64,000 bases of DNA. It comes from an uncultured Verrucomicrobiota bacterium (lineage in GTDB: Bacteria > Verrucomicrobiota > Verrucomicrobiia > Limisphaerales > UBA1412). The notes beneath the pieces were generated by a model that was given only the letters and a program-made list of their open reading frames with translations, did no database searches and was not told where the DNA came from. Where the stretch lies: NCBI GenBank assembly GCA_944389455.1, contig CALXMK010000009.1:1-64000 (forward strand), given 5' to 3'. This document shows, piece by piece, positions 2 through 15,660 of this stretch (within the stretch, counting starts at the first letter, position 1; the number at the start of each line of letters is the position of its first letter). A program made the translations under genes and the position numbers.

Positions 2-205
2 AATGAGGAGAATCCGAGAGGAGAGAATCATGTGGCCTATTTAATGAGCTGCGGTACCGGTGAAAGCAAGGTCGTTAATCAGTTTGATGGAAAGGGAGGC
101 TGGGTTTATAACCCGGAGAGCGGAGAGTTTGCGCTGAATCTGGAAGGGATGGAAGATTGTTCTACGAATCTAAACACACTTTTGAATAAAGCAGAGAGTC
201 TCTGA
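2..205 (+). CDS. C-terminal end of a pseudopilin-like protein (partial, enters from the left)
   Basis: An open frame runs from the window edge to a TGA at 203-205. Its readable part ends with FDGKGGWVYNPESGEF and then a short polar tail ending in NKAESL. The 'DGxGGWVYNPxxGE' ending is typical of the C-terminus of type II secretion/type IV pilus-like pseudopilins, which are very numerous in Lentisphaerota and Verrucomicrobiota. The N-terminal methylation helix is outside the window, so the family call rests on the tail only. A second, orphaned copy of the same tail lies at 15309-15462. Confidence 0.55.
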   Translation, partial: NEENPRGENHVAYLMSCGTGESKVVNQFDGKGGWVYNPESGEFALNLEGMEDCSTNLNTLLNKAESL

Positions 206-235
206 AGAGATGAACAGAAAGAGTGGATTTTGCTT
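50..235 (+). repeat. Pseudopilin tail repeat, copy 1
   Basis: This stretch covers the last ~50 codons of the pseudopilin-like gene plus ~30 bases after its stop. It matches 15309-15480 in the same orientation, with scattered substitutions. The match continues past the stop codon (AGAGATGAACAG and beyond), so it is a DNA duplication and not only conserved protein sequence. Confidence 0.75.
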
Positions 236-476
236 TGTGATATCAGAGAGGTCTATTTGAGGAGGGAATTTATTTAAAGTGTTTTGAGTAGTTTTCCGCA
301 TGCACGAGAAGCGTGGAGTCTCTCTATTGGGAGAGAGGTATTGTTTTAATTAAAACATCCTAATTCAGAGGAGGATGAAAGAGAGCAGATACTCTCGAGA
401 GTAAATTCCCATACAGTATCAACAATTAGGGGGAAAAAATAATTTTTGCATATTTTTATAAAAAGGCGAAAAGAGC

Positions 477-11709: not shown

Positions 11710-12669
11710 ATGAGAGAGAAAACGTTAGCCATTTCACTGGGGGATATTCGTGGAATTGGTCCAGAGATTACGCTAAAGGCCTTAGTGCATGAGTTATCTT
11801 TAAAGGATGGGTGGAGGTATATTGTTTATGGAGATTTAGACTTTCTACGGAATCTTAATGAGAAATTGTGTCTTGGATGTTCGCTGGAGAGTTCTCAGAT
11901 TACGGTTAGGGATACGGCTGGCGCGGCAGAGTTTCAGGAGCCGGCTCTTCGGGCGGTCTCATGGTTAAAAGGAGCTGCGGCTGCTTGTATGGCTAATGAG
12001 GCGGATGCGATGGTGACCGCTCCTGTTAATAAAGAGGAGATTATTCTTGCGGGATATCATCATTTTACGGGACAAACGGAGTATCTTTCGGAGTTAGCCA
12101 GAACGCAGGATACGGCTATGATGCTGATGGGGCAGGCTGATGGGGGGGGGCCTTGGCTGCGGATAGTATTGGCAACAACTCATGTGCGGGTTTCGGCTTT
12201 GGCTAAGATGCTTTCGGTAGAGAGAGTTGAGAGAGCTATTCGCCGAGCGGCCGATGCTTGCCGCTTACTGAGGATTCCTCGCAGTAGAATCGGAGTTTCT
12301 GCTTTTAATCCTCATGCCGGAGAGGGGGGAAAAATGGGAGATGAAGAGCAGCGATTGATCTTGCCGGCAATTGAGATTTGCCGGAAAAGCGGAATAGAGG
12401 CTGAAGGGCCTATTCCTGCAGACGCGATTTTGCGACAAGCATGGAAAGGAGAGTTTGATGTTATCGTCTCAATGTATCATGATCAGGCATTGCCGGCATT
12501 GAAGATGGTTGCTTTTGATACCGGAATTAATTGGACATTGGGCTTACCTTTTATTCGGGTATCTCCGGATCATGGAACCGCTTTTAATATTGCGGGACGG
12601 GGAATTGCTTCACCTCGTTCTATGATCTGTGCGATAGAACAGGCTAAGTTGTTGTGTAAAAAAGATTAG
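11710..12669 (+). CDS. pdxA: 4-hydroxythreonine-4-phosphate dehydrogenase
   Basis: PdxA oxidises 4-phosphohydroxy-threonine with NAD(P)+ in the DXP-dependent route to pyridoxal phosphate. The 319-residue product contains GDIRGIGPEI at the N-terminus (usually GDPxGIGPE), the metal-binding histidines in FTGQTEYL-side and MYHDQALPALK contexts, NPHAGEGG, and the C-terminal TLGLPFIRVSPDHGTAF. Length and order match PdxA. It starts a compact run with aroK (9 bp) and queG (overlapping). Confidence 0.93.
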   Translation: MREKTLAISLGDIRGIGPEITLKALVHELSLKDGWRYIVYGDLDFLRNLNEKLCLGCSLESSQITVRDTAGAAEFQEPALRAVSWLKGAAAACMANEADAMVTAPVNKEEIILAGYHHFTGQTEYLSELARTQDTAMMLMGQADGGGPWLRIVLATTHVRVSALAKMLSVERVERAIRRAADACRLLRIPRSRIGVSAFNPHAGEGGKMGDEEQRLILPAIEICRKSGIEAEGPIPADAILRQAWKGEFDVIVSMYHDQALPALKMVAFDTGINWTLGLPFIRVSPDHGTAFNIAGRGIASPRSMICAIEQAKLLCKKD

Positions 12670-13284: not shown

Positions 13285-14215
13285 GCTAGGATTTGAGGCT
13301 TGCCGGGTGACCGGAACAGAGCCGTTAGATGAGGGAAGGGCTTTGTTGGAGTGGCTGCGGCAGGGAAATTATGCTGGGATGGAATGGATGCGCCGTGAAC
13401 CTGGATTGAATAGCCGTTTAAATCCTGCTTGTCTGCTGCCCGGGGCAAAGAGTGTTATTTGCTTAGCGAGAAGTTATTGCAGTGATTCGGAGGAGGAAAG
13501 TCCATATTTATCCGGAATTGCGCGGTATGCTTGGGTGAAAGATTATCATTATCTTTTAAAAAAACCTCTGGAAGAATTGGCTCGGTTTGTGGATGAATAT
13601 ACTCCCCGGGGGGTGCCTGCAGCGGTTTGTTGTACGGATAGTCATCCGGTATTGGAGCGTGCCTTGGCTCAGCGAGCGGGGATAGGAGTTGTCGGTTGGC
13701 ATAACAATCTGATTTCACCAAAGTTAGGGAATTATTTTTTTCTTGCCGAGGTTATCACTTGTCTTGAGTTGCCCGAGGATGAGCCGTTATCGGAGGAGTT
13801 CTGTTCCTGCGTCCATTGTGGTCTATGTTTAAGGGCTTGTCCTACGGGGGCTTTGGAAGCTCCTTATAGGCTTAATGCCCGGCGCTGTCTTTCCTATTTG
13901 ACCATCGAACACCGCGGTGAGATTTCTCCCGAATTTTATTCTGCTATGGGAGAGAGGTTTATGGGGTGTGATCGATGTTTGGAGGCTTGTCCTTGGAGTC
14001 GGATAAATAGGCGGTCTACGCTTCCCCGATGGAGACTGCCTGAAGAATTTCCGGAGAATGGAAAGGATTTTAGTTTGGAAGATTTTATTCACTTTTTAGA
14101 AGGGCTAAGCAACCGTCAGTTTCAGAGGCTTTTCAAGGATTCTTCTCTGAGCAGACCGGGAAAAGCGGGCTTGCTTCGTAATCTTCGGATTGCGCTGAGT
14201 AATTCTAAGACCTGA
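13232..14215 (+). CDS. queG: Epoxyqueuosine reductase
   Basis: QueG reduces epoxyqueuosine to queuosine in tRNA with a cobalamin cofactor and two [4Fe-4S] clusters. The 327-residue product has the N-terminal DUF1730-type region and two ferredoxin motifs, CVHCGLCLRACPTGA (around residue 190) and CDRCLEACPW (around residue 245). That is the family arrangement, without the optional C-terminal HEAT repeats. The ATG at 13232 lies inside the 3' end of aroK. The next in-frame ATG (13379, within YAGMEWM) would remove the conserved N-terminus, so the overlap is probably real. Confidence 0.92.
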   Translation: MSLESLKLRERIKERAAELGFEACRVTGTEPLDEGRALLEWLRQGNYAGMEWMRREPGLNSRLNPACLLPGAKSVICLARSYCSDSEEESPYLSGIARYAWVKDYHYLLKKPLEELARFVDEYTPRGVPAAVCCTDSHPVLERALAQRAGIGVVGWHNNLISPKLGNYFFLAEVITCLELPEDEPLSEEFCSCVHCGLCLRACPTGALEAPYRLNARRCLSYLTIEHRGEISPEFYSAMGERFMGCDRCLEACPWSRINRRSTLPRWRLPEEFPENGKDFSLEDFIHFLEGLSNRQFQRLFKDSSLSRPGKAGLLRNLRIALSNSKT

Positions 14216-14333
14216 GTTGATTTATAGTGTTGAGTTAAAAATAAGAGAGTTCCGGATCTGGAGTGATTTTTCGAGCCGTGAGAAGTTTTTTTCATTTTTG
14301 AAGCTAAAATAAGAGATAAAATAAGAAAAAAGT

Positions 14334-14365
14334 TTGCTCTCGTTTTTTTTTTTTTTTTGTAAAAT
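14334..14365 (+). promoter_or_regulatory. Putative promoter with a T16 spacer
   Basis: TTGCTC (14334-14339), then TCG, sixteen T (14343-14358), G and TAAAAT (14360-14365). The spacer is 20 bp if these hexamers are used, and would be 18 with two fewer T. The layout matches 477-506, including the GTA directly after the T-run. It precedes the two small membrane protein genes at 14429 and 14720. Confidence 0.45.
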
Positions 14366-14428
14366 CATTTGTACAAATGAGAGAAAGGATAAAATGAGAG
14401 CTCAAAATGAATTAACAAAGGAAAGAAT

Positions 14429-14698
14429 ATGAATAAGATGTTTTTGATTTATCATATTTATACAGTGACTATTTTTTTGCCATCTCTTATTTTTGATTTT
14501 GAGAAGTTTGTTGGAATTTATTTTGTTTGGCTTGGATTTTCGGTCATCATGACTCTGACATGGTTGATAGAGCGTTTTTATGCCAGACGAAAACAGACGC
14601 CGGCGAAAGCGGAGATGCCGATTTGGTTTTATCTGAGTGCTCCAATAGGCGCAGTGGGCCCCCTTTTGATGGTAATTATTTTAAGTATTATGAATTAG
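14429..14698 (+). CDS. Small hypothetical membrane protein
   Basis: This 89-residue, mostly hydrophobic protein has three predicted membrane segments: about residues 5-23, 28-48 and 65-87. A short basic loop (ERFYARRKQ) lies between the second and third. The Shine-Dalgarno AAAGGAAAG precedes the ATG. I do not recognise a family. It is the first gene of a pair with 14720-15280 behind the T16 promoter. Confidence 0.6.
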   Translation: MNKMFLIYHIYTVTIFLPSLIFDFEKFVGIYFVWLGFSVIMTLTWLIERFYARRKQTPAKAEMPIWFYLSAPIGAVGPLLMVIILSIMN

Positions 14699-14719
14699 TT
14701 GTGAGAAAGGAGGAGAGTT

Positions 14720-15280
14720 ATGTATTTTGCGGTATTGAGCTTTGAGTTTGTGATAGTGGCTATAGCTTTGTCAGCGGTCAGTCTGATCTGGTATGGAGTG
14801 CCCGCATGGAGAGAAGGTCTGAATCGATGGATAATTAAATTATTCAGTTGGAGAGCCTGGAGGCCGGGTTGGGGATTGCTGGTTTTATTGATCCCTTGGA
14901 TAATGATAGCGACGATTGCTCTGGTTAGTACAGTGGAGAATTATCCTAAAATGACGGACGCAAGAGATGTCATGCGCTTTTTTATGAGTACACTCAGAGA
15001 TGCCACTTATTATGCAGAAGGTTATACGGAGGAGAAATTTAATTCTATCCGTTCCGAAATGAGTCCGGAAGAAGTGTGTGCAATAGTCGGGGAACCGTTA
15101 GAGAGGTCAGTCTTCAGAAAATACCAATGTGTCTTAGATGTTCCAGAAGGAAATGAACGTCAGGAGATCTGGCTGTATAGTCTGAGAGATGAAAGAGTCG
15201 AAGAGGGCTGGTGGTGGCAGCGAGCCGTTGTGTGGGGTGAAGACGGTAAAGTCCAGAAAGTGATTCGCCGCGGCTGGTAG
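14720..15280 (+). CDS. Membrane protein with a possible SmpA/BamE-like outer domain
   Basis: The ATG follows a near-consensus Shine-Dalgarno (AAAGGAGGAG). The 186-residue product has two hydrophobic segments (about residues 5-30 and 50-75). Its C-terminal domain contains SPEEVCAIVGEPLE, then IWLYSL, then AVVWGEDGKVQKVIRRGW. The 'xxxEVxxxxGxPxx...W.Y' layout is like SmpA/OmlA (BamE-type) lipobox-free domains. That resemblance is an inference from pattern, and no function is claimed. It pairs with the small gene just upstream. Confidence 0.6.
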   Translation: MYFAVLSFEFVIVAIALSAVSLIWYGVPAWREGLNRWIIKLFSWRAWRPGWGLLVLLIPWIMIATIALVSTVENYPKMTDARDVMRFFMSTLRDATYYAEGYTEEKFNSIRSEMSPEEVCAIVGEPLERSVFRKYQCVLDVPEGNERQEIWLYSLRDERVEEGWWWQRAVVWGEDGKVQKVIRRGW

Positions 15281-15308: not shown

Positions 15309-15462
15309 CTGGAACAGGAGAGACGAATCTTGTCAGTCGGTTTGATGGGCAGGGAGGCTGGGTTTATCACCCGGAGAGCGGAGAGTTTTCACTGAATCTG
15401 GAAGGAATGGAGGATTGTTCTATGAATCTAAACACACTCTTGAATAAAGCAGAGAGTCTCTG
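15309..15462 (+). pseudogene. Orphan 3' fragment of a pseudopilin-like gene (repeat copy 2)
   Basis: In frame after an upstream TAA, this reads TGETNLVSRFDGQGGWVYHP and onward to the same NKAESL end as 2-205. There is no start codon and no N-terminal methylation helix, so it is a gene remnant. DNA similarity to copy 1 (50-235) continues about 18 bases beyond the stop. The wider gap 15281-15725 also holds a short GC-rich dyad at 15517-15532 (CCCCAG / CTGGGG) and the tRNA promoter. Confidence 0.7.
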
Positions 15463-15660
15463 AAGAGATGAACAGAGAGTGTTGTTTTTGCTTATTTATA
15501 GGACGGAACTCTATCACCCCAGGGCCTGGGGGTATGATCCAGAGAGAGGTTAAAAATATTTACCTAAAAAGAAATGGGTGTTTTTATTTGTAACAAAAAC
15601 AGATAGAGTATGTTTTGTTATTTTTAAAGACTTCTTCTCGAGAGTTTTTTTGATTTAGGC

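Follow-up and report, generated by a model that had tools for sequence, protein, structure and literature searches.

Long T-runs as putative promoter spacers upstream of envelope and exported proteins in an uncultured Verrucomicrobiota bacterium and its class

The T16 run and its two counterparts in the genome

Does a run of 16 T's ahead of a small membrane-protein gene stand there by chance, or does it separate the two boxes of a promoter whose output would depend on the number of T's? The run lies in the window, by which we mean the whole stretch of DNA that was analysed, 64,000 nucleotides long (bases 1-64000 of contig C9; the genome comprises 2.62 Mb in 42 contigs). Direct reading of positions 14334-14365 gave TTGCTC-TCG-T16-G-TAAAAT, bearing out the preliminary description, which had listed TTGCTC, TCG and T16 with a spacer of 20 bp. 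TTGCTC begins 9 bases upstream of the run and TAAAAT follows a single G, placing the run between putative -35 and -10 boxes. The run is intergenic, upstream of a gene, with 70 nt from its end to the ATG. The locus contains the following features:

14316-14333, + strand: A-rich flank upstream of the -35-like box, within a stretch common to a copy on contig C13 (84% over 44 nt, T-run included)
14334-14339, + strand: TTGCTC, putative -35 box (direct reading; TTGC is directionally linked to long T-runs)
14343-14358, + strand: T16 run, putative slippage-prone spacer (direct reading; among the genome's three longest T-runs found)
14360-14365, + strand: TAAAAT, putative -10 box at a spacer of 20 (direct reading; TAnnnT is enriched at TTGC-T-run sites)
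14429-14698, + strand: first gene of the unit, an ORF for a small hydrophobic (membrane) protein of 89 aa
14720-15280, + strand: ORF for a 186-aa protein with a hydrophobic N-terminal region

A standard promoter scan makes no call at this site, because TTGCTC is poor as a -35 box and a spacer of 20 is outside the usual range. The 89-aa protein matched no Pfam or NCBIfam family above cut-off. The 186-aa protein gave a weak, sub-threshold BamE-like match (E = 0.12) and an unusable structure model (pLDDT 53); it has distant homologues in three same-genus genomes. One of these, G002, holds a tandem array (L044/L048, contig C84), where the three homologues have no long T-run promoter before them.

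A similar arrangement with T14 and a spacer of 18 had been described as its counterpart, and direct reading placed it near the start of the window:

448-476, + strand: A/T-rich flank ahead of the first copy, containing ATTTTTATAAAAA (the 55-nt box is 86% alike with the C13 copy; P = 1e-4)
477-506, + strand: first copy, TTGCAC (477-482), ATA, T14 (486-499), G, TATTTT (501-506), spacer 18 (direct reading)
540-932, + strand: ORF following the first copy, for a membrane protein of 130 aa with a single helix
957-1544, + strand: second ORF after the first copy, for a membrane protein of 195 aa

The structure model of the 130-aa protein (pLDDT 71) gave no significant match in a fold search. Homologous gene pairs were found in G002 and G004, that in G002 having no T-run before it. 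The 195-aa protein matched no family above cut-off.

Two occurrences had been taken to make a chance homopolymer less likely, and the genome counts point the same way. Apart from T14 and T16, T-runs in the window reach 8 at most. In a 436 kb sample (about 17% of the genome) run lengths go up to 9 and then jump to 14, 16 and 16, while a pattern search of the whole 2.62 Mb returned nine runs of at least 10. The three longest runs (14, 16, 16) all have TTGC just upstream, against a background of 3.3% for T5-T9 runs (three of the nine runs of at least 10, P = 0.003; three of three of T14 or longer, P about 4e-5), and TTGC-N(3-6)-T12+ has 3 matches in the whole genome compared with none for the reversed pattern. 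On length and rarity, T16 is longer than chance would give for an intergenic homopolymer. An ordinary promoter signal, TTGA-17-TAnnnT, is also seen in this genome (21 occurrences vs about 7), and a check of the genome's promoter spacers ruled out T-richness as a general spacer feature. The longest G-run of the window, nine G's at 12142-12150, lies inside a 319-aa ORF (11710-12669, pdxA-like by eye); it could be a coding slippage site or a sequencing error.

The genome search proposed in the preliminary description turned up a third copy, on the minus strand of contig C13 (about 71183-71205, the T-run at 71183-71198), which reads TTGCCATG-T16-AATACCAT with a spacer of 20. All three copies have TAnnnT at spacers of 18-20. 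The flanks, said to be the same in the two window copies, are indeed similar and A-rich in all three, but over 45 nt upstream the closest resemblance is between the first copy and C13 (P = 1e-4), then between T16 and C13 (P = 0.003), and the two window copies come last (P = 0.03). Likewise, both window copies have a G followed by TA, as described, but the C13 copy breaks this GTA rule; GTA is therefore probably just a G ahead of a TA-type -10. We rejected ATTTTTATAAAAA as a defining mark, since it occurs at two of the copies here and at two sites of a relative, G324, but also elsewhere without T-runs.

The three copies are followed by genes with no relation to one another: the 130/195-aa pair after the first, the 89/186-aa pair after T16, and on C13 an Rhs C-terminal fragment with a 301-aa protein behind it (on this contig the next long ATG ORF begins about 110 nt downstream of the run). 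The box therefore recurs independently of the gene served, and duplication of a cassette along with its genes is ruled out, as the 55-nt box alone is common to the copies. The two window copies do precede pairs of small membrane proteins, as claimed, but the third does not, and as a rule the claim falls, given the Rhs fragment and the many PEP-CTERM and other exported proteins served in relatives.

Rhs core fragments were found at window 15502-15549, at C13:70798-70986 and at contig ends of C7, C11, C39 and C40; the first, a 48-nt remnant, adjoins the T16 locus, and the second is an orphan C-terminal fragment that comes after the third T-run. An Rhs toxin/immunity link was considered and dropped: no Rhs was seen at the T-run genes examined in relatives, and we take it as local context. 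Separately, a 204-nt stretch encoding a protein end (..GGWVYNPESGEFALNLEG..) is present twice in the window (53-256 and 15311-15514, 83% identical). Its first copy matches the beginning of contig C15 at 98% identity, which makes the stretch multi-copy and a probable cause of the assembly break.

T-run sites in related genomes

Related genomes, several of them fragmentary, were compared; six are of the same genus. G002 and G003 share an orthologous candidate promoter, TTGCTTGC(A)-T15/T13-CTTTTTATATCC, that precedes a secreted protein and adjoins a divergent gene with 91% identity between both genomes. The stretches adjoining that gene in G001, G005 and G000 have no long T-run, and for T16 itself we found no orthologue with a T-run. 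As T-runs are missing at homologous loci of relatives, these putative T-run promoters come and go. Long runs without TTGC were also seen in the genus: T14 and T17 upstream of secreted proteins (G002:C21:50812 and G002:C24:37793, the T17 abutting an N stretch) and T13 upstream of a prepilin-like gene (G000:C22:7193).

A search for TTGC-N(0-6)-T12+ in a 286-genome sample of the class gave 13 distinct sites in 6 other genomes, compared with 2 reversed-control sites. When the sites of genus and class were combined, TAnnnT, a loose -10 criterion, stood at a spacer of 16-20 in 9 of 18, against 2.9 expected from shuffling the downstream 40 nt (P = 7e-4). Not every site in the class agrees with the spacer model. 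The G284 sites, for example, have T12-T13 and a constant total length, lack a well-placed -10 and have their ATG 17 nt beyond the run.

Two genomes from another family of the class, G324 (737 kb sampled, 52% GC) and G228 (397 kb sampled), lent weight to the promoter reading. In G324, TTGC lies just upstream of 13 of the 22 T-runs of at least 10, vs about 4% of T5-T9 runs (P = 3e-13, to be read as a guide, the tests on both genomes having been built after the sites were seen). The typical form there is an A-rich flank, CTTGCG, T10-T14, about 6 nt and TAnAAT, with the ATG usually 39-93 nt further on. Most G228 sites are more canonical, with TTGACA/G, 5-6 nt, T9-T12, GC and GAnAAT at spacers of 17-19 before PEP-CTERM genes. 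Taken together, the two genomes have 21 sites (12 in G228, 9 in G324) where T9-T14 separates TTGCGT or TTGACA/G from TAnAAT or GAnAAT, the spacers being mostly 15-19, and none in the mirror control of either genome. Many of these sites are upstream of PEP-CTERM or other exported proteins, though some T-run targets in G324 are not exported. With the PEP-CTERM motif found by a simple pattern, runs of T9 or more were enriched upstream of such genes in G228 (P = 5e-7) and G324 (P = 1e-4), again as guides. The NCBIfam PEP-CTERM cut-off was passed by proteins at L086, L101 and L102; other downstream proteins fall just below it.

Several PEP-CTERM leaders of G228 (L130, two copies at L133, L144, L147) also contain a strongly conserved hairpin, GAGACAAA..GGCGGGAACGCC..TTTGTCTCGGTTTTT, between the T-run promoter and the ATG. 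It is terminator- or attenuator-like, and one copy was predicted at -27.7 kcal/mol (z = -5.8).

At loci other than T16, paralogues and orthologues differ in T number while their flanks are conserved. Three G228 promoters, nearly identical over about 200 nt, have T9, T11 and T11; a second group in the same genome has T10, T11 and T11; tandem paralogues in G324 have T13 and T11; and the G002/G003 orthologues differ as given above. The comparison is between copies and species, each species being represented by a single assembly, and T counts taken from draft assemblies may contain errors. Such length differences are what slippage would leave behind.

Readings of the T-run

We consider it probable, if well short of certain, that T16 separates the -35 and -10 boxes of a sigma-70-type promoter, as a slippage-prone spacer that would phase-vary or tune envelope genes. 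The recurring promoter-like box, its third copy, the -35/-10 hexamers of relatives and the differing T numbers uphold the promoter proposed in the preliminary description, without its rule on small membrane-protein pairs. On this model, TTGCTC - TCG T16 G - TAAAAT would drive the two-gene membrane-protein unit at 14429-15280. Slipped-strand mispairing would change the number of T's and with it the distance between -35 and -10, and transcription of genes for envelope or exported proteins could be switched or graded accordingly. As assembled, with a spacer of 20, the promoter would be weak or off; a spacer of 18 would be acceptable, and loss of about three T's would give 17; it is on these grounds that we read the run as a slip-prone spacer that may act as a switch or a dial. 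That the promoter is active, that the run slips within a population and that its length controls expression are all three points that we infer. The window's genome would then have a small set of putative poly-T-spacer promoters.

The strongest rival is that the T-run is a structural element, a rigid or curved A/T-tract that makes the promoter stronger or serves as a binding site for a regulator, its length differences being by-products of little effect. It owes this rank to the predominance of T11 in the PEP-CTERM promoters of G228, which could reflect a fixed length, and to the constant-length sites of G284. The A/T-rich flanks conserved upstream of the boxes would suit it as well, as would T9 runs in spacers of exactly 17 before two housekeeping-type genes of the window's genome, within the part that was sampled (TTGAC-N6-T9-GA-GAnAAT, at L019:8222 on the + strand before a 1176-aa metH-like gene and at L024:12229 on the - strand before a 407-aa gene). 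Against this, near-identical copies do differ in T number, and the runs are pure and far above background length in a genome whose spacers are not T-rich in general. We judge a purely structural role unlikely, while giving it real weight.

Alternatively, the run could lie upstream of the true -35, as documented for sabA of Helicobacter pylori (PMC4081817), its length phasing upstream A-tracts with the core promoter. A second box pair, TTGTAC (14369-14374) - 15 - TAAAAT (14390-14395), is indeed present downstream of T16, and a T13 on contig C22 of the window's genome runs straight into GACA, with which it could make TTGACA. However, a spacer of 15 is short, the other two copies have no such layout and the class-level sites have their -35 ahead of the run, making this arrangement improbable here. 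We consider it very improbable that the run is the tail of a terminator, belongs to a coding region or is a homopolymer of no function. The ORF of the first copy can be read from TTG 477 through T14, and the three runs of G284 share their frame with the ATG that follows. Against this, the ORF at 14429 does not reach back through T16, the next long ATG ORF on C13 starts well beyond its run, the directional TTGC link and the length outliers speak against neutrality, and a search of 14200-14450 found no G+C-rich hairpin directly before T16, as an intrinsic terminator would need.

Returning to the slippage-prone spacer, we put forward tentatively, with somewhat less than even confidence, that the poly-T-spacer promoters in at least two families of the class form one slippage-tuned family that determines, in each cell, the choice of PEP-CTERM and other envelope proteins produced. 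If true, this would be a lineage-wide contingency system where the phase variation reported so far proceeds by inversion or coding tracts. It would provide a simple envelope-protein switch in a poorly studied lineage, its state readable from T counts in metagenome reads, and a regulatory handle on PEP-CTERM proteins. A search of open-licence papers found none that joins PEP-CTERM, promoter and homopolymer, which is weak evidence because the search was limited to such papers; those open-licence papers that mention both PEP-CTERM and 'phase variation' do not appear to describe poly-T-spacer promoters.

Comparison with known systems

The closest precedents are porA of Neisseria meningitidis, with poly-G between -10 and -35, and hifA/hifB of Haemophilus influenzae, with a TA repeat (PMC3899988). 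There, as in our model, a repeat tract upstream of surface-protein genes sets the distance between -35 and -10. The repeat is T here rather than G or TA, and several unrelated loci share the box; switching is demonstrated at porA and hifA/hifB, while for the window it is proposed from sequence.

The vlp promoters of Mycoplasma hyorhinis have a poly-A tract between -35 and -10. They too have an A/T homopolymer within the promoter spacer, at several genes per genome, the vlp genes encoding surface proteins. The phylum is different, however, and the vlp genes are paralogous whereas the units described here are unrelated. These promoters are listed as a promoter-repeat case (PMC3899988).

In sabA, a T-tract of similar length adjoins the -35 on its upstream side, with A-boxes further upstream, and slippage tunes the promoter (PMC4081817); the window T-tract would lie between -35 and -10. 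Poly-T and T-rich promoters also precede vlp, vmp and ospAB of Borrelia (PMC2525819). These genes encode surface lipoproteins and share with the window a long poly-T in the promoter, but the tract is far longer in B. duttonii (174) and B. recurrentis (46) and is not linked there to a variable -35/-10 spacer (PMC2525819).

Within Verrucomicrobiota, the phylum to which protein content and the genomes compared point for the window's genome, phase variation in Akkermansia uses invertons at the capsule locus (PMC13343947) and, in Amuc_1413, a G9 tract within the coding sequence (PMC13055324). The phylum is a setting for phase variation, in which the window would take its place by a promoter homopolymer instead of DNA inversion or coding-frame slippage. 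The type of switch is already known, as in porA; going by the open-licence papers searched, the lineage would be new for it.
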